This document shows, in pieces, positions 970 to 14,606 of a stretch of DNA of 14,687 nucleotides. Position 1 is the first letter of the stretch, and the number at the start of each line of letters is the position of its first letter. Under the pieces are notes generated by a model. It had not been told where the DNA came from. It searched no databases and saw only the letters and a program-made list of their open reading frames with translations. This DNA is from Tritrichomonas foetus (taxonomy: Eukaryota; Parabasalia; Tritrichomonadida; Tritrichomonadidae). A program made the translations under genes and the position numbers. The DNA lies in assembly GCA_001839685.1 (NCBI GenBank), contig MLAK01001164.1, positions 17,119 through 31,805 on the forward strand. Direction: 5' to 3'.

Positions 970-1049
970 AGTGATTTCGTACGTTAAGACTATTTGGTTT
1001 GTATACATCTGAATCGACATTCATCTCTGAACAAATCAAAAAATCAGGA

Positions 1050-4000
1050 ATGGAATCCTTCCTAGAAGGCTTAATTCCACTCGTTGCCCAACCTCATCTT
1101 GTTCCAGCCGAACAAATTATCACGCTAGCACTTCTTTCCTTCGAAGAAATCTTCCAGACGGTCCCCGACGACTCCGATAAAATATATGAATCTATCGAAC
1201 AGGTTCTCCTTCCATTTTTCAGCATCAACGACGGCTGCCTTTCACTCCCCGCTTCAATTAGAATTGCCAACTGCCTTATTTCTGTTTATGAGAAATCAAA
1301 TCATCCCGAAAAATGGAATTTCATAAATTACACATCATTGAAATTGAATCCGGCTTCGATTTACGGTTTAGGTCAAATAATAGACTTTATAGGTGACAGA
1401 ATTGAAAACCAGCTTCCAACAATAGCAAAAGTATTAATTGATAATTCCAAAAATGAAGAATTTGTTTTGCCAACACTTTTTGCTTTGAATTCCTGCCTTA
1501 AACGGTCTCCACATTACATGCAGCCTTTTGCACCAAGTATTTTCAATTTTGCCAAATCAGCAGCATTATCTGATGATGAGCCACTTCAATTAAACGGTCT
1601 CAAACTTTTAAGAACACTTATTAAAAAGACTGATTTACCGATCCAGAACTTTTTGAATATTGCACATCAAGTTTTCAAGAAAATTGAATACAAAGAAACT
1701 CGGGCAGCTGATTACGTTTATTTAGATGCCTGTTACTTTGTTGCAAGGCTTGCATACACACCTTTCCTTTCTTTAGAACCGGAAGACACACGCGCAGAAT
1801 GGACAGCTGTCGAATGGGGCTCAAATGAAGTTGAAGATACATCTAGTATGAATTCAAACTCAAACTCAAATAATACTGTTAATACTAATGTTAACAACAA
1901 TGGATCTAATTCAAATATAAACCTGAGTGGAAATGATAATTCTAATAATACTAAGAAAGTCAATGAATTAGAAGAAAGTTTCGATATATTGAGACAATTT
2001 TCAGATCATTTTAAATTTATTTTAACAAGATTCTTGGATTTGCTTGAACCAATGACTATTCATAAAAATTTATTCACGCTTTATGAATTTGTTCGAGAAG
2101 TTGATGAAACAGAATTACCACAAGTAATGTCACTTTTCGGACATGATGTTAAACAATCAATTTTTAAACGAGTCGCCAAAGAGCAGCCACCAACAAAAGA
2201 GCAATTGGCTCTTCTTATTTCTTTATATTGTGGTGAAGATTCCACTCGAGAAATTGCAGCTCTTGCTTTACAATTAGCAAACAGTGGTAATACACGGAAT
2301 CGAAGAGCAGCTGCTGAGTTTTTTGCTGAATTGGATGAATGGGATCCCGATTTAGCTGAACAATATTTAGAAACATCAATGCTTTGTTTGGCCTTTCCAC
2401 CAGAAAATAATCCGAATATGGAAAATGAAATAATTGGGTTTTCAATGATTGCTTCTTCAATTTTAGGACCTTCTCCAGATCGTGTTGAACTTGCAATGGA
2501 TAATTCGGAAAATATTGAATTATTTTTAAACAAATTTTTGAAAGTTGATGATGTTCTAAGTCCAACTTTTGAAGCGTGTTTCGTATTAATGACGGTTTTA
2601 CCTGAAAAATTAATTCCGAAAGAACTTACAAGTGAAGCACTTGCAAGACTTGCTGGATTTATTGAAGGACAAGATTATTCACGTGGTATTGCGCGTTTAA
2701 ATGAGGTTTGTAGAAGTGCCGCTGTCTTTTTAGCACAACATCCTTATTTCGAAGTAATTGGCAGATTGTATTGGCATATAATTTCACTTCCAAATTTACC
2801 TTCACGCTCTGGTATTCTAGCAATCATTATTGCATCACCTAGAGCGTTAGAAGGAACATCAAAACTCGCAAATATCTCATACATGCTTGTTGAACATATT
2901 TTGAGTGTGAGGCCAAGTAATTCTTTAATGATGAGTATGGTAAAGCATCCAATAATATCTTTAAGTTTCGATCCACCACTTCCGGAATTGATTTTTTCAT
3001 ATGTACGGAAAAATGAATTCTGTTTTCGAATTGTTGACAATTATCCAGATTTCATTCTTTCATTAAAACCTGAAACTGCAACAAAAACAATTTCTAAACT
3101 TTTGGCAAATCAAACCAATAATGCAATGTCACATTTAATCTTATTATCATTGATTCAAAATGAGAAAATAATTAAACTTTTACCAAAAGGATTTGATAAA
3201 TCTTTATTTTCAACAGTTTCTGATTTAACTGCTGAATCAGACATTTCAGAAATTATGGAGTTGTCCATAACTGCTGAAGTTTTAGCAATTTATGCTAAAT
3301 CAAATCCAAAAAGATTAGCTTCATTTATGACAGTTCTTGAAGAACAAAGCACAATTGCGAAATGTATTCTTTTGGCTGCTGTTTTATCACATTGTGATTT
3401 TGATAATGAAGCATTAGCTGTAATCATGCATGATTTGGATGGTATTGCTATGATTAGTGATTTTACCAATTTTGCTCTTCATGCACTTTCGGTCCTCTTT
3501 ATTGAGAATAGTATGAAACTTGCTGCAAATGGTGTTGTTGATATGCAATGTCAAGTTATGTTTAATTTACTTAATTCTGAGCATGTTTTATATCCAGAAG
3601 AAATGGAAATGGTTGCTGACAGTTTTAGTAACTTTTTGCCAATTGTTTCACCAGAAATTGAAACTGATAGATCAGCTTTAATTCCATTAATTAAGCTTAC
3701 TGTTCAATCATTCACTAATGTACCACTTCCATTCATGAAACACTTCACGTTCAAAACAATGCAAGCTGTTTCTGCATTTGCTCGAAAATTAACAACAAAT
3801 ATCTTGACAATTCAATTTCCAATGTCACGTGGCATTTCTACAAAGCTACAACTTGTTGCATCTGCTACACTTGCTGATGTTCTTCGAGTATCTCCTGATT
3901 CTGTGAAAGAATATGACTTCTTTGAATATTTGGACGACTCTCTAGTAAATCTTCAAAGAACAGCAGATAAAAGAGCTTCGGACTTCATTCTTGCTATTAC

Positions 4001-6347
4001 TCAAAACTTTGCTGATCGCTTTACAGAGGAATTACATAATACTACAAAAGATCAAAAGGAAACCTCACGCTTAGGTGATTATATTTATATCATCAAAACA
4101 ATTTTAGCAAATGGTGCTTTGCCTTTCACTGGAAATGCAATAATTGAAGCTGTTCGTGTTGTAAAACTGTGTGCATTGAACATGATTGAAATCATTTTAC
4201 CCCTTTTTAAGAAAATTTATCCATTTCCAAGTGATTATCTCACCGATATAATGTCATCTTTAATTCGTGCAATTGAAACACGTAAAAGAAAGCTTACAAC
4301 ATTAAGCTATTCGATTCTAGTCACTATATTAGATGAATTTAAAGAAGAAGAAAATGATGATGAAGTCCATATTCTATCTTTATATGATTCACAATTTTCT
4401 ACAGCTGTTAGATATGGATTCCAACTTGATTTAGGTATAAGTAGTGAATTTTTAGTTGCCTTCTTATGGTTTCATCTAGAAAACCTGAAAACTAGACCAG
4501 CTGTAATGAAAGTCATTCTCGACTCTTATGTAACTGGTTTAGAAAGATGTAAACAACGTACCATTGCGTATGTTGGTATTGCTGCATGTATTGCAGATAT
4601 TGCACGTGAACAAACTGCTCTTTTTGATCAAGTTAAAGCCTTTGTCTCTAAATTGATGCCTTTATTCGCTGAAATTATAAATGAATCAATGAATATCCTT
4701 CAAAGTAATCCACCTGATTGGGCCAAAATTGCTCAGTTTCGATCAAATTACAGTGATTTCTATGGTGATATGCTTAGTTGTTTTGTTTGGTTCCAAAAGA
4801 AACTTGGAATAATGGAAATTATTCGATTAGAGAAAATTGTTAATTTCTGTATTAAAGAAATTTGGAATGGTTCTGAAATGTGGCGTGTTTCTTCTGCTTT
4901 TGAGGCTTTGGCAGTTATAATTGAAACATCACCTGAAACAGTCTCAATGGAAGTTCTTGGTCATGCCGTTGATGTTGTTCGTGAAATGAATGAAGCTTCG
5001 CCAGAATTTTTGGAATATGCACTTCCACTTTTCTTAAGAGCAAGTGTCAAAAAGATAACAAACATTGTAACAAGCATTCCGGTTTTAAAGAATTCTCTAT
5101 CAATGAATGACATAAAAGAAACAAACCCCACAATTAATAACCCCAGTCCTAAATCTTCACTAAACACTGAAATAAAATATTTACCTTCTACAGATGAAAT
5201 TAACAACACAGCCAAAGAACAACTTCAGCAAAACGTCAATCTCAATCAAAATCATGACAACATTGAAAATCAAAACACCAAAACTGAGAATATGCAAGAT
5301 AGTAAACTCGAAAATGAAAAAATTGTTGGAAAGGATGAAGAATTTACAAAGATTCATGATTTGAGTGATTTAAGTGAAACAATTGATCAAAATCTACAAA
5401 AAACTAGCAGTAAGTCAGATGACGATGATATTGATGAAACTCATAAAGACATCATTCAGAAACAAGCACCAAAAATATGGGAACATTTAATGGAAGCTGC
5501 TTTGAAATTGAGTTATGTTCCTGAAGTTTTGGGAATCTTAATTGCCAAAGGACGAAACGATCAAGTTTCTCAATATGCCGAAGGAATATTTCAAGATGCT
5601 GTCGATCAGCCTTCTAATGAACTATATGTTCCAGTTTTGAAGCTTTTGGCACATAAAGTTCCAGAAAAATCTGGAATTTTCATCGAAAGAATCATGAATG
5701 AAAAAGACATTGATATTCAATGGAAACTTGATAACTTAAAATTGTTTTTATCCAAAGTTACAATCGATTCTATCAAACCTTCTGTTTTGAATGATGCTTC
5801 AAAATTGATTCATTTTCATTTCAAAAGAGGAGGTCTAAAAATTCTGTCAGAGATCATAAGCAGTAATCCAAAAATAGGTTTTGCTGTTCTTTCTATTTAT
5901 AAACTTGAACATATTCGTTTATTAATTGAAAAAGAATTCAACAATGCGAAAGTTTATCTTCAATTTTTAAGATTCGCCTTTTTGAAAGCGAAAGAGCAGT
6001 TTTTATTAAATCCAGAAATTTTTGAACGTTTAATATCTGTAGCAATCCATACATTAAATATTTGGGGATCTTCTTCTGATCATCGAGTCTTCAAAATAAT
6101 TTCACTGGCAGTGAATCTACTCCAAGAAACAAAAGAAGCATCACCAAGACTTTTTAAAGAAACAATCCTTAAAAAAGTGAGTAACAGAGAAATGCAAATT
6201 GCACTTGCAGCGGTTGAAATGTCTATAAATAAGAAAAATAAAAGCGGAAAAATCATCAAACTGAAAAAATTCTCACAAATGAACAGGAAAAATTCCCATG
6301 ATTTGGAAAATGAAGATGGTGTTCCAATTCCAAATGAACCACAATGA
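1050..6347 (+). CDS. large HEAT/ARM-type helical repeat protein, 1765 aa
   Basis: The frame is open from 975 and its first ATG is at 1050, giving 1765 residues; the upstream TTG at 999 is not a credible eukaryotic start. The product is almost entirely amphipathic helix pairs (for example LPTLFALNSCLKRSPHYM and ASATLADVLRVSPDSVKEYD), with no signal peptide or membrane segment, as in HEAT/ARM solenoids that act as scaffolds or transport adaptors. Two polar stretches interrupt it: an Asn/Ser tract near 1843-1956 and a long charged Asn/Gln/Glu/Asp linker at about 5095-5455. The C-terminus is basic and then acidic. The length exceeds importin-beta proteins (about 1100) and is nearer to HEATR5/Laa1 proteins (about 2050). 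The arrangement of the N-terminal third suggests the latter weakly, and an importin-like protein is the alternative. The assignment to a repeat fold is firm; the family is not. No intron is needed. Confidence 0.9.
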   Translation: MESFLEGLIPLVAQPHLVPAEQIITLALLSFEEIFQTVPDDSDKIYESIEQVLLPFFSINDGCLSLPASIRIANCLISVYEKSNHPEKWNFINYTSLKLNPASIYGLGQIIDFIGDRIENQLPTIAKVLIDNSKNEEFVLPTLFALNSCLKRSPHYMQPFAPSIFNFAKSAALSDDEPLQLNGLKLLRTLIKKTDLPIQNFLNIAHQVFKKIEYKETRAADYVYLDACYFVARLAYTPFLSLEPEDTRAEWTAVEWGSNEVEDTSSMNSNSNSNNTVNTNVNNNGSNSNINLSGNDNSNNTKKVNELEESFDILRQFSDHFKFILTRFLDLLEPMTIHKNLFTLYEFVREVDETELPQVMSLFGHDVKQSIFKRVAKEQPPTKEQLALLISLYCGEDSTREIAALALQLANSGNTRNRRAAAEFFAELDEWDPDLAEQYLETSMLCLAFPPENNPNMENEIIGFSMIASSILGPSPDRVELAMDNSENIELFLNKFLKVDDVLSPTFEACFVLMTVLPEKLIPKELTSEALARLAGFIEGQDYSRGIARLNEVCRSAAVFLAQHPYFEVIGRLYWHIISLPNLPSRSGILAIIIASPRALEGTSKLANISYMLVEHILSVRPSNSLMMSMVKHPIISLSFDPPLPELIFSYVRKNEFCFRIVDNYPDFILSLKPETATKTISKLLANQTNNAMSHLILLSLIQNEKIIKLLPKGFDKSLFSTVSDLTAESDISEIMELSITAEVLAIYAKSNPKRLASFMTVLEEQSTIAKCILLAAVLSHCDFDNEALAVIMHDLDGIAMISDFTNFALHALSVLFIENSMKLAANGVVDMQCQVMFNLLNSEHVLYPEEMEMVADSFSNFLPIVSPEIETDRSALIPLIKLTVQSFTNVPLPFMKHFTFKTMQAVSAFARKLTTNILTIQFPMSRGISTKLQLVASATLADVLRVSPDSVKEYDFFEYLDDSLVNLQRTADKRASDFILAITQNFADRFTEELHNTTKDQKETSRLGDYIYIIKTILANGALPFTGNAIIEAVRVVKLCALNMIEIILPLFKKIYPFPSDYLTDIMSSLIRAIETRKRKLTTLSYSILVTILDEFKEEENDDEVHILSLYDSQFSTAVRYGFQLDLGISSEFLVAFLWFHLENLKTRPAVMKVILDSYVTGLERCKQRTIAYVGIAACIADIAREQTALFDQVKAFVSKLMPLFAEIINESMNILQSNPPDWAKIAQFRSNYSDFYGDMLSCFVWFQKKLGIMEIIRLEKIVNFCIKEIWNGSEMWRVSSAFEALAVIIETSPETVSMEVLGHAVDVVREMNEASPEFLEYALPLFLRASVKKITNIVTSIPVLKNSLSMNDIKETNPTINNPSPKSSLNTEIKYLPSTDEINNTAKEQLQQNVNLNQNHDNIENQNTKTENMQDSKLENEKIVGKDEEFTKIHDLSDLSETIDQNLQKTSSKSDDDDIDETHKDIIQKQAPKIWEHLMEAALKLSYVPEVLGILIAKGRNDQVSQYAEGIFQDAVDQPSNELYVPVLKLLAHKVPEKSGIFIERIMNEKDIDIQWKLDNLKLFLSKVTIDSIKPSVLNDASKLIHFHFKRGGLKILSEIISSNPKIGFAVLSIYKLEHIRLLIEKEFNNAKVYLQFLRFAFLKAKEQFLLNPEIFERLISVAIHTLNIWGSSSDHRVFKIISLAVNLLQETKEASPRLFKETILKKVSNREMQIALAAVEMSINKKNKSGKIIKLKKFSQMNRKNSHDLENEDGVPIPNEPQ
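1843..1956 (+). repeat. Asn/Ser codon tract inside the HEAT-repeat gene
   Basis: About 38 codons are mostly Asn and Ser, using AAT/AAC and TCA/TCT, for example MNSNSNSNNTVNTNVNNN. The tract is inserted between helical segments and is probably a disordered loop that grew by codon slippage. The mix of synonymous codons argues against a recent simple expansion. Confidence 0.8.
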
Positions 6348-6640: not shown

Positions 6641-8851
6641 ATGTTATCTGCTTTTGACCTTAACCGTTTCCATTCTATCATGACCGAAAAACCTTTTCAG
6701 CTTCTTCCAATCATTGATTTAAATAATTTTCAAGTGGAAGAGGAACTTGGAAATTATTATTTCCAAACAACCTATCTCATCAAAGAAAACAACCAAGTCT
6801 ATGATGGTCAGTTTTATCATCACGATTGTGCCGAGAGTGAAATCTCTAAATATATAGCACGGCCAATTATTGAGAAATGTCCTGGATTCATTGAAGTTGT
6901 TGGTGTCACTTTTTCTTCAAGTTTTAAACAAGGCAGAAATGTCATTGTTACAAAGCACTATGAAAATAAGACACTTCGGAATGTTATGGATGATTTAATG
7001 AAAAAAAAGCGTACATTAGGCTATGATAACACAGCCAAACAAATCATTATCACCGGATTGGCCAAAGCCATCGAAATACTACATTCCAATCGAATAATTC
7101 ATAACGAGGTCACTCCTTCAAACATTTGGCTTGATGAAAACTTTTACCCGCATTTAGGTGGTTTTGAATTCAGCACTCCATTTGATAGAGAAGCAATCAT
7201 GTTAGAAAAGGTGGATAATACATCACCTGTTTATAGGGCCCCAGAAAAAATTGAGAGTGAAGATTATGACGAGAAAGTTGATATTTATAGTTTTGCAATC
7301 ACACTTTATGAGATTTTATTTGACCGAGATCCTTATCAACTTAATTCATATAACTTAATATTCCCATTCTTAAGAAGTGTTCAGAACGGTGTACGACCTG
7401 AAATTCCAACATCTGTAAGTAATCATTTTCTTGCTGAATTAATGGAAAAGTGCTGGGATTATAATCCACGTGAAAGACCAAGCGCGAGTCAGTTATTTAA
7501 ATTATTATCAGAAGATCCTAATTATATGCTTGATGGAGTTGATAAACATGCATTTCAATCTTACTTGAAAACATTAAAATATGATGATCCTAATTCATTA
7601 AAAGACGAAATTTCCAAACTCAAGAAAAAAAACCAATATCTCCAAAATATTAAAAAAGAAAACGAATATTTAATCACTAATATTGTCGAAAAAGAAAAAG
7701 AAATTGAGAGATATAAAAAACAATATGATTCGCTAAATTTGCTATATACAAAATTAAAACAAAAATATGAAAAATTGAAAGAAGAAGAAAAGACCAAAAA
7801 ATCATGGTCAAGCGAAAGTAATGCTAAAAATGCAATGATTGATTTGAATGAGTATGAAAAGAAAGAACAATTAAGTTTTGGTACATTTGGTGAAGTTTAT
7901 TCAGTTTATCATAAAGAAAGTCACGAAGAATTTGCAGCTAAAGTGAGTAAATATCCATTTAGTAATAATGATGCTGATCTTCGAGAAATTAACATTTTAT
8001 GTCAATTAAAACATCCAACAATTGTTAATATGAAAGGATTTTCGTTTACTAATTTTGAACATGAAAATTGTATCACTATTTTGATGGAATTAATACAACA
8101 TGGTTCTTTACGAAATTTGCTTAATGAAGAGCAAAATGGTAATCTTAAACTTGATTATAATAATACTCAACGTCAAATTATTATTACCGGAATTGCATAT
8201 GGAATGAAATATTTACATGAACATCATATTTTTCATCGAGATTTAAAGCCAGATAATATTTTAATTGATTCAGAATTACATCCTAAAATCACTGATTTTG
8301 GTACATCCAAATTTTTTGATCCAGATCATTCACATTCACAATCACAACAACATGGTACATTATTTTATATGTCTCCAGAATCACTTGTTGATAATCATTA
8401 TGGACCAGAATCAGATGTTTATAGTTATGGTATTATGTTATATGAAATTTTAACATCACTTCCTGCTTATGATATGACTAAAACAGAAATTAATACAATC
8501 CTCAAATTTTGTAATAAAGTTGTCTATCAAAATTATCGACCAATCTTTACCATTCCAATTCAAAAAGAATTTCAAGAATTAATTGAGCAATGTTGGGATT
8601 CAGAACCATCAAATCGACCAACATTTTCCGATATTTTTACCAAATTGAGTTCAGATTCAAGATATCTTCTTGATGATGTTGATGAGAATGAATTTTCTAA
8701 TTATTTATTTGATTTAGAGCAATCCCAAAAGAATGATAATATTTCTGCTGTTCGTAATGAAGAAGTAATAATCAAACTTCTTCGAGACAATGAACTTCTA
8801 CGTCAAAGGATTGAAGAACTTGAAAATCGAACTAAAATTTCCGAATCTTAA
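6641..8851 (+). CDS. pseudokinase - coiled coil - active TKL-like protein kinase fusion
   Basis: The 736 residues form two kinase folds. Domain 1 (about 28-290) is catalytically dead: there is no glycine loop, the VAIK lysine strand reads VYDGQF, HRDLKPxN is HNEVTPSN (154-161), and DFG is GFE (174-176). APE (200-202) and the C-lobe CW..NPRERP motif remain. Residues about 317-388 form a Lys/Glu-rich coiled coil. Domain 2 (about 400-675) looks active: loop SFGTFG (412-417), AAK434, helix-C E449, HRDLKPDN (532-539), DFG (552-554) and SPE in place of APE. The first loop Gly is replaced by Ser. A second coiled coil closes the protein (about 703-730). Both domains are followed by the tail Y-(M/L)-L-D-x-V-D. 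The expected activity is cytosolic Ser/Thr (TKL-type) phosphorylation, with domain 1 as a likely regulator (inference). The start may instead be Met14 at 6680. The stop overlaps TAAAA, which fits the trichomonad TAAA poly(A) signal. Confidence 0.93.
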   Translation: MLSAFDLNRFHSIMTEKPFQLLPIIDLNNFQVEEELGNYYFQTTYLIKENNQVYDGQFYHHDCAESEISKYIARPIIEKCPGFIEVVGVTFSSSFKQGRNVIVTKHYENKTLRNVMDDLMKKKRTLGYDNTAKQIIITGLAKAIEILHSNRIIHNEVTPSNIWLDENFYPHLGGFEFSTPFDREAIMLEKVDNTSPVYRAPEKIESEDYDEKVDIYSFAITLYEILFDRDPYQLNSYNLIFPFLRSVQNGVRPEIPTSVSNHFLAELMEKCWDYNPRERPSASQLFKLLSEDPNYMLDGVDKHAFQSYLKTLKYDDPNSLKDEISKLKKKNQYLQNIKKENEYLITNIVEKEKEIERYKKQYDSLNLLYTKLKQKYEKLKEEEKTKKSWSSESNAKNAMIDLNEYEKKEQLSFGTFGEVYSVYHKESHEEFAAKVSKYPFSNNDADLREINILCQLKHPTIVNMKGFSFTNFEHENCITILMELIQHGSLRNLLNEEQNGNLKLDYNNTQRQIIITGIAYGMKYLHEHHIFHRDLKPDNILIDSELHPKITDFGTSKFFDPDHSHSQSQQHGTLFYMSPESLVDNHYGPESDVYSYGIMLYEILTSLPAYDMTKTEINTILKFCNKVVYQNYRPIFTIPIQKEFQELIEQCWDSEPSNRPTFSDIFTKLSSDSRYLLDDVDENEFSNYLFDLEQSQKNDNISAVRNEEVIIKLLRDNELLRQRIEELENRTKISES

Positions 8852-9477: not shown

Positions 9478-9485
9478 ATTTTCCT

Positions 9486-9550
9486 AAATGCATAATTTAT
9501 CAATGTATAATTCCTCTATGTATTATTACTCAATGTATAATTCCTCAATG
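9486..9550 (+). repeat. 15-bp tandem repeat, about 4.3 copies
   Basis: The units are AAATGCATAATTTAT (9486), CAATGTATAATTCCT (9501), CTATGTATTATTACT (9516), CAATGTATAATTCCT (9531) and a partial CAATG (9546). Copies two and four are identical over 15 nt, and copy three differs at a few positions. The array ends 85 nt before the first ATG of the next gene, so it lies in that gene's putative promoter region. Confidence 0.85.
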
Positions 9551-9634
9551 AAAAAAATGACAGAGTGAAAGTCTGTCTTGAAAAAAAACGTAGAATTGTG
9601 TTTATAAATGGCCAACCAAAAATAATTTGATTGT

Positions 9635-10786
9635 ATGACCATATATATTGTGAAAAAGTTTCCATATTTTCCGATGTTTGATCTGAGCAATTACAAAGTC
9701 TCAAGGCGGATCTTTTGTGATACATACTTTGATATTTCCGTTATTAAACAGTGCGAAACCAAAGAAAAGTTCGTTGCCTACGTTTCCTTAACATCGAGTG
9801 ATTATTTTGACAGAAACGCGACAGAAATACACAAATACTACGATAAACTACTCAATATCGATCACCCATGTATTCTCCGCCACGTTGGCCGTTCAGATGT
9901 CGATTTAAGTGACAGAAATTTTCCAACATATATATCTGAATATTACGGAAGCGGGAAAACTCTGGATTTCGTAATCGAAGAATCAAACAGACCGAAAAAC
10001 GATGATAACGAAAGGAGCGAATACAGCGAAAGTTCAGAAAGTGATGATGACAAAAGTGAAACTGACAATGACAAAAATAACACAAAAAGTGAAAATGACG
10101 ATGAGGAAAATAACAGAAAAAGTGAAAACGAAGAGGAAGAAGAAGAAGGAAAAGATGAAAAAAGTGAAGATTATGAAAGTAGTGAATATAGTTATAGTTA
10201 TTATAGTGAAGAAGAACCACCACAATATGATAACACTGCCCGCCAAATAATTTTAACGGGAATTGCATCTGGCATGAAATATTTTCATTCTCTTGGATTT
10301 ATTCACAGAGATTTAAAGCCAAGCAAAATATTCATTGATGATGATTTTTATCCAAAAATTTCTGGATTTGAAGTTTGTGAAGTCACCAGCTCCTATCTTT
10401 CCGGCGAGCCAATGGGAAACGTAGTTGGCTCTCCGCTGTTCATTGCACCTGAAGTAATGAAGGATGTGAAATATTCCGAAAAATCTGATGTTTTCAGTTT
10501 TGCTATGATTATGTATCAAGTTTTGACAGGATGCATGGAGTTTTATCCTGATACACCAAACACCTTCAGAATCGTGACAGAAATGGTTGATGGTTTGCGG
10601 CCGAATTTGGACATTCAAATAAAAGAGTCTTTCAAAAACTTAATAAAGCGCTGCTGGGACACAGATCCAAACAATAGGCCGTCCTTTGAAGAGATTTTTG
10701 ACTTGTTGAGTAAAGACCCGCAATATTTGCTTGATGATGTCAATCAGGATGCGTTCAAAAGTTTCATGGAATATTTATCACAATGA
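9635..10786 (+). CDS. pseudokinase with long acidic low-complexity insert
   Basis: The 383-residue protein has a kinase-like fold that is probably inactive. The N-lobe has no glycine loop, and the VAIK lysine is replaced by Tyr (FVAYVS, Y49). The catalytic loop is HRDLKPSK (224-231), with the metal-binding Asn changed to Lys. DFG is SGF (243-245), losing the Mg-binding Asp. APE (271-273), the D-V-F-S-F-A helix and CW.TDPNNRP are kept. Between the N-lobe and helix E lies an insert of about 75 residues (121-195) rich in Asp, Glu, Ser, Lys and Asn, including three 11-residue repeats beginning KSE. The protein ends with LLDDVNQDAFKSFMEYL, the same tail that follows both kinase domains of the upstream gene, so the two are tandem paralogues. 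The likely role is scaffold or allosteric partner rather than enzyme (inference). Met14 (9674) is an equally good start, because the family usually begins close to the DLSNYKV strand. Confidence 0.9.
   Translation: MTIYIVKKFPYFPMFDLSNYKVSRRIFCDTYFDISVIKQCETKEKFVAYVSLTSSDYFDRNATEIHKYYDKLLNIDHPCILRHVGRSDVDLSDRNFPTYISEYYGSGKTLDFVIEESNRPKNDDNERSEYSESSESDDDKSETDNDKNNTKSENDDEENNRKSENEEEEEEGKDEKSEDYESSEYSYSYYSEEEPPQYDNTARQIILTGIASGMKYFHSLGFIHRDLKPSKIFIDDDFYPKISGFEVCEVTSSYLSGEPMGNVVGSPLFIAPEVMKDVKYSEKSDVFSFAMIMYQVLTGCMEFYPDTPNTFRIVTEMVDGLRPNLDIQIKESFKNLIKRCWDTDPNNRPSFEEIFDLLSKDPQYLLDDVNQDAFKSFMEYLSQ
10052..10150 (+). repeat. 33-bp in-frame tandem repeat, three copies
   Basis: Three 33-nt units beginning AAAAGTGAAA encode KSETDNDKNNT, KSENDDEENNR and KSENEEEEEEG. 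They form the core of the acidic insert of the pseudokinase. The period is a multiple of three, so copy-number change would lengthen or shorten the insert without breaking the frame. The third copy has drifted into a GAA/GAG run. Confidence 0.85.
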
Positions 10787-10938: not shown

Positions 10939-11142
10939 GTGTAATAATATATTATGTGTACGTCGATTTTGGATAATACATAAATTAAGAACAGACCACT
11001 TATTTAAACAGTTAACTTCATTAATGAATCATTCTATTTATTTTTATAAATGAACAATTTTATATTTTAATGATTTTATCCATTTTTGTTTCATATTTCT
11101 GAAAAATCAATCATTGAGTCATAAAAACAAATTTAAAATATA
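10939..11142 (+). repeat. left terminal inverted repeat
   Basis: The arm starts with GTGTAATAAT and pairs with 12276-12488. Its core at 11012-11079 is identical to the reverse complement of 12339-12406. It contains the short palindrome TTCATTAATGAA at 11017-11028. Similarity fades inward after ATTTAAAATAT near 11142. Confidence 0.85.
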
Positions 11143-11566
11143 TCAATTACGACAATATATGAGATCATTTAAGTTTAGAATTATGGTTTCATTCATGAAT
11201 GTTTTAGGTTTTTCATTTTTTGTTGGTTTTATTTTATCATGTGTAGCCTTCATTTGCTCATTTAACTATATTTTTTGCTTTTTGTGTAAAGTAAAGATTA
11301 TTTTTATAATAATTGGGTATAAAATCATCAAATGATGATTCGGTTTCATTTTTATTTTTATATGTATCATTTGAATCATGACTTGTTGAGTCAGGTGTAA
11401 AACTCTTTGGTATTTATTCTTTGAATCCATACATTTTATGTATAAACATAGGCAGTTACATTATTCAGTAAATGCTCATTAATACTGTCTTGATGATTTT
11501 TATAAACTTAACTTTTCGTTAAGTAAACTTATAATTCTTTAATAGATAATCTTCGTATAAAATTTA

Positions 11567-12130
11567 GGTTTCTATATCGGATAGGAATTGATGTCGTTTA
11601 ATTAAATGTCTTGCTTTATGGACATCACGCTTCTATAAAGAATCAATGAATTCATTCATAAATTGTTTTGGAATTAATGATTCAAACCATTCAGATATTC
11701 ATGAGGATAGAATCCATTATTTTCTGCTTTCTCATTTCCTAAAGTTCATCATTCTATTCATTACTTGGTTAGAAACTATTTTTTTTTAAGATCATATGTT
11801 ATCATTTCAAACAATATCACCAAATTTATATAAATCATTAATAAAAACATTAATAAAGTTGTTTCCATAATATGATCTGTATCCTTGAAATTAACTATTA
11901 ATTATACGCAAATTGGGTCAATTATTCCTTCATCAAGTGTAATAGTTTCAAAATCATATATGATATAATATCTTATTGGTTAATAATTTAATTTATGAGC
12001 ATTTATAATATTATAAAATTGTGCCTAAATCTCCTTTGCTTTTGATATAATCAGCCTTTATTTTGGTGGTTTAAACATTTCTTTTGCTAAACAACAACAA
12101 AAACACAGATTAACTCAGTTTTCAAGTTGC
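11567..12130 (-). pseudogene. remnant resembling family-B (protein-primed type) DNA polymerase, exonuclease region
   Basis: The minus strand holds colinear coding-like pieces with stops and frameshifts. The best is at 11973-11902, containing RYYIIYDFETITLDEGIIDP, where YDFET matches the Exo I pattern (D-x-E) of family-B polymerases. Next come 11863-11810 (NNFINVFINDLYKFGDIV) and 11736-11689 (NEKAENNGFYPHEYLN), the latter resembling the KGxFPH-type motif found between Exo II and Exo III in DNA_pol_B_2 proteins. Then comes 11695-11567 (contains SEWFESLIPKQFMNEF and KARHLIKRHQFLSDIE, with an internal stop). Upstream, at about 12130-11974, the Exo I frame continues with several stops. The order agrees with a polymerase read on this strand. 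It is certainly non-functional; the family assignment rests on short motifs. Confidence 0.42.
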
Positions 12131-12275
12131 CAAATGCATTTATATAATATAAATTTCTGCATATTGTTTACTATATAACACATGCTGTGACGAATATTTC
12201 TCAATGATTTATATAACTATAAAATGTTAGAATAACTGTTTTAATGTGTTAGATGTTTATTGCCTTGAAAATAGC

Positions 12276-12488
12276 ATACTTTAAATTTATTTTTGTTGAT
12301 TCGATGTTTGATTTTTCAGAAATATGAAATAAAAATGAATAAAATCATTAAAATATAAAATTGTTCATTTATAAAAATAAATAGAATGATTCATTAATGA
12401 AGTTAAGTTGTTCAAATAAGGGGTATGTTCTTAATAAATTTATGCATTATCAAAAATCGACATACATATTATATATAATTATTCACAC
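12276..12488 (-). repeat. right terminal inverted repeat
   Basis: This is the reverse-complement partner of 10939-11142. It is a few nucleotides longer because of small insertions near its outer part (for example the extra TTT near 12430 relative to the left arm). The outer end reads ...TTCACAC. Confidence 0.85.
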
Positions 12489-13268: not shown

Positions 13269-14486
13269 CTATGCAAATGTGGACTGCCTCCGATTCTCCT
13301 GGGCGAACGATCGATTTCCGGAGACAAGTTTGAGTGCGGATTGGTCGGGCTTCGATAAATGCCGTCTCTTATGTGAAATGCTTTTGTCAGAAAACGATTG
13401 GACGAAGAAGCCGGCCTTCATTCCAGATCGTCGTGATCCGGATGGGTCGATTCCGCGCCCGCTTGCCATGGCCATCCGTGAGAAAGATCCGCGCATTGAT
13501 CCTGATGAAGCGATTTGCGGCTGCTGCATGTTGTTGAAGATTTTATCGGATAAAACTTGTTCGATTGTCGGACGGAATTTTGGACTCGTTTTGAGCATCT
13601 GGTTAATCAGTTTTTGGAACTCGATTGGAGCTGTTCTACGCGGGTGGTCGGGATCGATATCGAAATGAACTAATCCAAATTTAATTGACTTAATCACTTC
13701 CTGTTGATGTTCGCGATGATCTGAACCGGATATAATCCATGGCAGCTTGCCCATTGCCATTTGATAGAAAGTTACACCAAGTGCCCAAACATCGGCCTTG
13801 AAGGGATCGAATCCGTTATTTTTTACATTGGGGTCAAATATTTCAGGGGCCATCCAATAGAGGGACCCACCCCTGCTCGTTATTTTCTTATCTATTGAAT
13901 TTTCAAGATCTAACGATAGGCCGAAATCACAAATTTTTGGCCTTCCGTGCTGGTCAATTAAAATATTTGATGGCTTGATGTCGCGGTGGGCAACTTTTTT
14001 GTTATGGCAGGCATTAAGGGCTCCCAAAATTTGATAACAGAAAGAATAGAGCATTGGCGGTTTCATTGGGCCATTCTTTTTAATATAATCATTGAGGGAT
14101 CCGTTTGGGCAGTATTCGATGATGATAAAAACTGTTCCATCCTTTTCGAAATATTCAAAAAGAGAAATAATATTTGGATGTCTTACTTTCAAATTCGCGC
14201 CAATTTCTCCTTCTTTCTTAGCTAGATCAATTTCAGATGGAATGTTAGAAGCGTCATTGTTTGCATTTGAGAACATATTCAAATTTCTATTGATATTGTT
14301 TTGATTTGAATTATTATTTGGCTGGAGAGGAGAATTTTGATTATTATTGTTTTGTGAATTTAACACGATTTTCTGGCCATTTAGAACGATTTCTGATCCG
14401 TTTGCTTGCTGTTCTCTTTCATTTTTTCCTTGGTTGAGTGGATTGTTTGCATAATTTTGGAGGAATTGGTAGCACATTGGCTTCAT
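13269..14486 (-). CDS. Ser/Thr kinase C-lobe protein with Asn-rich N-terminus, lacking the glycine loop
   Basis: From the first usable ATG (14486) the product has 405 residues. Residues 1 to about 82 are Asn/Gln-rich. Kinase similarity starts abruptly at helix C (about 86-102, ending VRHPNI), followed by the hinge IIEYCPNGSL, HRDIKPSN (167-174), DFG (187-189), GGSLYWMAPE (APE 213-215), D-V-W-A-L-G-V and FRPT. These features suit the CAMK/ULK-like kinases common in trichomonads. The glycine loop and the VAIK lysine, normally about 40 residues before helix C, cannot be found; Asn-rich sequence occupies that place. The C-terminal 85 residues are basic and Ser/Arg-rich, plausibly regulatory. The frame is open back to 14615 with the same Asn-rich character, and an ATG at 14630 is in frame but stopped by TAA at 14618-14616. 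The gene is therefore either truncated at its 5' end or recently disabled. With a complete C-lobe but no ATP-anchoring strands, kinase activity is doubtful. Confidence 0.85.
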   Translation of the reverse strand: MKPMCYQFLQNYANNPLNQGKNEREQQANGSEIVLNGQKIVLNSQNNNNQNSPLQPNNNSNQNNINRNLNMFSNANNDASNIPSEIDLAKKEGEIGANLKVRHPNIISLFEYFEKDGTVFIIIEYCPNGSLNDYIKKNGPMKPPMLYSFCYQILGALNACHNKKVAHRDIKPSNILIDQHGRPKICDFGLSLDLENSIDKKITSRGGSLYWMAPEIFDPNVKNNGFDPFKADVWALGVTFYQMAMGKLPWIISGSDHREHQQEVIKSIKFGLVHFDIDPDHPRRTAPIEFQKLINQMLKTSPKFRPTIEQVLSDKIFNNMQQPQIASSGSMRGSFSRMAMASGRGIDPSGSRRSGMKAGFFVQSFSDKSISHKRRHLSKPDQSALKLVSGNRSFAQENRRQSTFA

Positions 14487-14606
14487 ATCATTGCTATTAC
14501 TATGTTGAATTTGGTTCCTTGTCTGCGGGTTGTTGTTGTTCGGTGTTGAAATTGTAGAATTATTTTCGCAATTAGTGGGTTGAATATTTTGGATATTCAA
14601 ATTCGA

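Follow-up and report, generated by a model that had tools for sequence, protein, structure and literature searches.

A 1528-bp element with long terminal inverted repeats (TIRs) lies at positions 10947 to 12474 of a 14,687-nucleotide stretch of the Tritrichomonas foetus genome (contig MLAK01001164.1, positions 17,119 to 31,805 of the forward strand; hereafter the window). This element is very probably a copy, now dead and shortened by internal deletions, from a family of small DNA transposons, and this judgement includes our reading of the family itself. We file the family as a small polymerase-HNH TIR element of 4.6–6.0 kb with TIRs of about 200 bp, a variant of the self-synthesising transposons and not a Maverick. 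As a dead transposon copy, the one in the window is unremarkable; the interest lies in the family behind it. Eukaryotic self-synthesising transposons, as known to date, are large, virus-like and integrase-bearing. If the reading is true, a one-gene polymerase-HNH element of 4.6–6.0 kb would be among the smallest autonomous ones, or else a Maverick parasite that borrows its integrase.

Inverted repeat and ends of the element

An initial annotation, made from the letters of the window, had described arms that are reverse complements of each other. The best local alignment bears this out: 10942–11141 and 12276–12481 form an inverted match of 206 columns, 88.35% identical, with a score of 292, against a best score of 69 among 200 first-order Markov-resampled sequences. 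The exact core claimed for the arms was located correctly to the base: the longest exact inverted match is 68 nt, at 11012–11079 in the left arm (plus strand) and 12339–12406 in the right arm (minus strand).

The limits first given for the element, 10939 and 12488, were too wide because a few flanking bases match by chance. Alignment to the TIRs of two-ended copies elsewhere in the genome places the ends at 10947 and 12474. The left TIR spans 10947–11141 (plus strand), with a family-type end indicated by this alignment and by the inverted match. The right TIR spans 12276–12474 (minus strand), and its family-type end carries the 17-nt end motif with two mismatches. The description of the arms as near-identical was also too strong. 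Outside the core they differ at about 16% of positions, little under the 17–27% divergence of each window arm, measured over those columns, from nine other arms of the family.

Copies in the genome and target duplications

The genome searched comprised 63.7 Mb, with the window on contig C771. The searches scored the best candidates (40 of 56 with the whole element and 40 of 53 in another search), and the copy counts are lower bounds. With the window element as query, at least 91 matches were obtained: its own full match, its own two arms and 88 elsewhere. Other copies with the same ends, which the initial annotation had proposed to look for, are thus present at many loci.

The family termini read 5′-ATATA(G/A)TATGTACGTCG, with the target site duplication (TSD) directly outside. 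A scan for the 17-nt terminus allowing up to two mismatches gave 56 sites, compared with 12 for a reversed control. Twenty of these sites form ten convergent pairs. Eight pairs are large (4628, 4740, 4673, 5089, 5204, 5099, 5945 and 5972 bp), and two are short (623 bp on C622 and 503 bp on C856). A further short two-ended copy, of 2.25 kb, is on C647. In the large copies on C125, C161 and C897, the TIRs have the terminus 5′-ATATAGTATGTACGTCG and are 98.5% (204 columns), 100% and 99.5% (both 203 columns) identical, respectively. For the remaining 36 sites, which have no partner, the cause may be a contig end, a longer element, or a second terminus too diverged to be picked up, as is the case for the left end of the window element.

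Target duplication length had been suggested as a means to separate Mavericks (5–6 bp) from Mutator-like elements (8–9 bp). It is 6 bp in this family and exact in 8 of the 12 two-ended copies, a count that leaves out single-ended copies and the rearranged copy on C432 (L048). The exact duplications are TACTTT, AAAATA, TATCAT, AACGAC, ATGAAT, TTCATG, ATTTGG and, on C232, again ATGAAT. Inexact ones were seen on C536 (CAACTT with one extra base), C622 (5 of 6 positions), C647 (4 of 6) and in the window. A search for an empty site in the same genome yielded none for the right flank of the window element, which is unique; the left flank was not searched.

These results bear on two other explanations. 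The initial annotation had named a segmental inversion as the finding that could overturn it. Such an inversion, or a chance inverted repeat, is ruled out for practical purposes: the arms stop at family-wide ends, copies lie at many loci with target duplications, and the alignment score is far above the best control. The other is a Mutator-like or other DDE transposon with TIRs. Mutator-like elements (MULEs) make target duplications of 8–11 bp, unlike the 6 bp found here. The gene relic in the element is of a polymerase, and in the gene pieces no transposase domain was found above its cut-off. In favour of this explanation are the long TIRs, a match to a DNA-binding domain of transposases that falls short of its cut-off (see below) and the MULEs reported from a parabasalid in excerpts of PMC2725143. 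The IS481EU elements of parabasalids, according to the consulted part of PMC10045372, have duplications of 4, 15 or 25 bp, again not 6. We consider a DDE transposon of this kind very improbable.

Interior of the window copy

The claim that the interior holds no intact gene stands in that its longest stop-free stretches are 93, 65 and 64 codons; the element has no coding capacity left. The interior is not empty, however. Judged from translated alignments, it is what remains, on the minus strand, of a DNA polymerase gene that has lost three internal segments. The N-terminal piece of the gene, searched against the genome, gave three matches in the window, all on the minus strand. With tblastn, the relic segments in gene order are 12192–12007, 12000–11875, 11878–11795, 11745–11680, 11695–11288 and 11292–11158, with stops present.

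The relic begins at 12007–12192, which matches residues 4–67 of the N-terminal piece from locus L032 (55% identity, E 3e-13, several stops; 57% over residues 5–67 in the genome search with that piece). The segment at 11795–12000 corresponds to the exonuclease region, residues 227–298 (69% and 82% identity), and includes YDFET, which we take to be the ExoI motif. A short relic at 11680–11745 matches residues 391–412 (55% identity, E 0.003). The C-terminal extension of the gene is represented at 11522–11695 (62% identity, E 9e-18, to a piece of L042) and further at 11288–11521 (39% identity, E 3e-13, to a piece of L049 over 11626–11288; also pieces of L042). The last codons are at 11158–11292 (55% identity, E 4e-7, to the C-terminal end of the L031 frame). 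All six of these features are on the minus strand.

The deletion junctions are at 11690–11702 (the largest, about 2.4 kb), 11742–11743 (about 232 bp) and 12007–12020 (about 457 bp), with sizes taken relative to L031, that of the largest being an estimate. No convincing repeat was found as microhomology at the junctions. None of the 90 other genome matches, two of them the element's own arms, crosses any of the three junctions in the readable sequence of the 40 candidates scored out of 56. The deletions therefore look private, and the window copy looks like a unique deletion derivative rather than a member of an amplified non-autonomous family, as had been suggested. An amplified family of MITE-like type, with its ends under selection, would fit the occurrence of short two-ended copies, namely the 503-bp copy on C856 with its exact TSD, the 623-bp copy and the 2.25-kb copy. 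The internal structures of these short copies differ, the window junctions recur in no other match, and across the family the core shows no marked excess of conservation over the remaining arm. We give this explanation very little weight.

The C856 copy (L045, 1339–1841) shares about 402 bp with young copies at 99.3–100% identity. It represents a recent internal deletion, suggesting that short forms can arise quickly.

Conversion between the arms

The similarity of the arms had been ascribed either to selection on the ends or to homogenisation by conversion. The tract is longer than randomly placed differences predict (p 0.00015 with gap columns counted; p 0.003 with gaps as single events). 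The alignment for this comparison comprised the two window arms and 21 others, drawn from 18 loci, among them L048. Conservation among relatives, averaged over 9 of the 21 arms (8 divergent and 1 young), was 0.840 for the core and 0.814 for the rest of the arm, and selection on the core was therefore rejected. Bases private to both window arms occupied 6 of 68 core positions compared with 1 of 138 positions outside (Fisher p 0.006), a test that rests on 21 other arms and in which more arms could lower the number of private states. Since the core exceeds the rest of the arm in conservation by so little and holds six of the seven private states, the comparison points to conversion between the arms after insertion as a better explanation than selection.

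The gene of the family

Pieces of decayed copies, together with metagenomic relatives, show a family B DNA polymerase into which an HNH/endonuclease VII domain is inserted. As far as the gene can be read, this domain appears to sit between the exonuclease and the polymerase. In the copy on C125 (L031), an open frame lies just inside the left TIR; in C213 (L032), the corresponding N-terminal frame runs without a stop through 485 codons to the contig end. Among the large copies, C125 was read except for 844 middle codons, C161 and C897 were read at their TIRs, and the other five at their ends. By our estimate, the 844 masked codons of L031 correspond to about the remainder of a polymerase like that of the relative P0012 plus the C-terminal extension.

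The polymerase is probably of the protein-primed group. The phi29 enzyme ranked first but was tied with an archaeal enzyme. An F12 match was seen, which, together with matches of adintovirus type, suggests this group. The best fold matches of the relative P0002 were an adintovirus protein and densovirus-labelled polymerases. The structure model came from a deeper alignment (pLDDT 70.6) and replaced a first model with a pLDDT of 39.6.

For the DNA polymerases B of polinto- and bidnaviruses, a long N-terminal region has been proposed to be the terminal (priming) protein, as stated in part of PMC4061559. The element gene starts at about residue 285 of P0012 and thus lacks most of the region comparable to this proposed priming protein. 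A conserved DNLC...H region is found at residues about 350–475 of P0002 and at the start of the L032 frame. An OTU-like domain may lie ahead of the exonuclease; the weak Foldseek rows for P0002 against PDB, all above E 0.001, include OTU proteases (best probability 0.96, E 0.03) and the HNH enzyme PacI (probability 0.69), and tying the OTU fold match to the DNLC...H region is our own reading.

Eleven related proteins (P0008, P0010–P0016, P0018, P0022 and P0023), of 1356–1882 amino acids, are encoded on contigs of 4.9–7.6 kb. Metagenomic contigs as small as these are what one would see if assembly had recovered the element alone as a unit. No relative was found in viral contigs or in prokaryotic genomes, and a protein search with the N-terminal piece alone found none. 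The four relatives from Tritrichomonas musculus are all named 'hypothetical protein' in NCBI, and one is labelled CRAL-TRIO in UniRef. With a polymerase that Pfam does not see and names of this kind, related elements in gut metagenomes and in the genomes of other trichomonads may have escaped notice.

Three further polymerase sequences were noted. P0007, filed under Helicobacter typhlonius, is a piece of the family's polymerase and probably reflects contamination. C403 (L053), tried as a relative, was rejected as it reads by eye as a cellular replicative polymerase similar to Pol alpha. L055 (C645, 36800–38700) belongs to an ordinary PolB2 lineage of the same genome that is visible to Pfam and distinct from the element polymerase.

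Several observations weigh against our reading of the copy and its family. No polymerase family was found by Pfam in the relatives, a single hhalign run against an ordinary PolB2 of the same genome failed, and Foldseek against PDB gave nothing at E ≤ 0.001. At least one of the strict motif patterns was absent in 10 of 13 relatives. The transposase DNA-binding domain HTH_Tnp_Tc5 gave a sub-threshold match (E 0.004, under its cut-off). The content of one gene in the 4.6–6.0-kb copies is inferred from ends and fragments pieced together, and protein priming, excision and integration are putative steps. In the window itself, the probable decayed target duplication (GTAATA at 10941–10946 on the left and ATAATT at 12475–12480 on the right) matches at four of six positions, for which the chance of four or more is about 0.09; it is compatible with an old copy but is not evidence alone.

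Proposed mechanism and integration

In the mechanism that we propose, the element's own polymerase would start from the TIRs and produce a linear DNA copy, as has been proposed for Polintons; this copy would then be joined into a target cut with a 6-bp stagger. Once inserted, the window copy lost three internal segments and acquired many stops. Its arms drifted apart, and the 68-nt tract was probably made identical again by conversion from arm to arm.

By length, the 4.63-kb copy would have no room for an rve integrase. Integration is therefore probably supplied in trans or, in a bolder proposal, by the HNH domain. A Maverick integrase in trans is our first choice because rve integrases make 6-bp duplications (parts of PMC12220804 and PMC10045372), and we give a Polinton-type rve integrase acting in trans an even chance of being the joining enzyme. 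The genome has four rve matches, none of them, in the readable sequence, on a contig with a terminus hit. It is rather doubtful that the element's own HNH domain joins the ends. Equally tentative is the proposal of a distinct eukaryotic group of one-gene self-synthesising elements, in which a single protein would copy the element and open the target by an HNH-made 6-bp stagger without a DDE or tyrosine integrase.

Genomic surroundings

The element lies between a kinase gene that ends at 10786 (plus strand) and a kinase-domain frame at 13269–14600 (minus strand). Protein kinases make up three of the four large window proteins scanned. Two neighbouring kinase genes have in common a 145-nt stretch at 72% identity (8156–8300 and 10226–10370) and thus look like tandem duplicates. 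Four overlapping 30-nt copies at 15-nt spacing are present at 9481–9555, upstream of the second kinase gene. An open frame of 1782 amino acids at 999–6347 had no Pfam match at 0.001.

Comparison with known systems

The family resembles Polinton/Maverick elements in its TIRs of at least 100 bp (203–204 columns, 98.5–100% identical in the three large copies measured), its 6-bp TSD, its family B polymerase and its protist hosts, which include trichomonads. The termini differ: those of Polinton/Maverick elements are 5′-AG, whereas those of the family are 5′-ATATA. Polinton/Maverick elements are 15–20 kb long, whereas the family measures 4.6–6.0 kb (the eight large copies are 4628–5972 bp; 36 of the 56 sites are unpaired). 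In contrast to them, the family shows no visible rve integrase in the readable sequence and has its HNH domain inside the polymerase. No capsid, ATPase or protease is visible either, with no search aimed at these three having been made.

The small elements might still be deletion forms of ordinary 15–20-kb Mavericks with the same ends, making the window copy a remnant of a canonical Polinton/Maverick. The length of the TSD equals the 6 bp of rve integrases (PMC12220804 and PMC10045372, in part), the family B polymerase has fold matches of adintovirus type, and the unpaired sites leave room for longer elements whose second end has diverged or lies beyond a contig end. T. foetus is also described as rich in Polinton/Maverick elements in the portion of PMC10120064 consulted. 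However, the eight large pairs found in the scan of 56 sites all measure 4.6–6.0 kb and no termini are paired 15–20 kb apart, no contig with a terminus hit carries any of the four rve matches in the readable sequence, and the Pfam family that marks ordinary PolB2 genes of the same genome misses the polymerase of the relatives. A Maverick remnant is therefore unlikely, and we retain the small polymerase-HNH family as the preferred reading. The open-licence literature, as far as its accessible parts go, gave no description of a polymerase-HNH transposon of 4.6–6 kb; subscription papers and Repbase were outside the scope.

Adintovirus genomes carry capsid genes. The adintovirus- and bidnavirus-type polymerases, to which the best fold matches of P0002 (the adintovirus protein and the densovirus-labelled polymerases) relate the family, sit in virus genomes with such genes, whereas the element gene starts about 285 residues into P0012. 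The transposon-derived family B2 polymerases of Entamoeba histolytica (813–1279 amino acids) are likewise large polymerase genes without other Maverick genes, according to part of PMC3511435, in the text of which, as available, 'terminal inverted repeat' and 'HNH' both have 0 occurrences.

Casposons, which combine a family B polymerase with Cas1, share with the family the self-synthesising logic with TIRs. In several of them an HNH protein is encoded, for which a supporting role in integration and in recognising the target site has been proposed (PMC4046053, in part). Casposons, however, occur in prokaryotes, carry HNH as a gene of its own and are proposed to integrate by means of Cas1.
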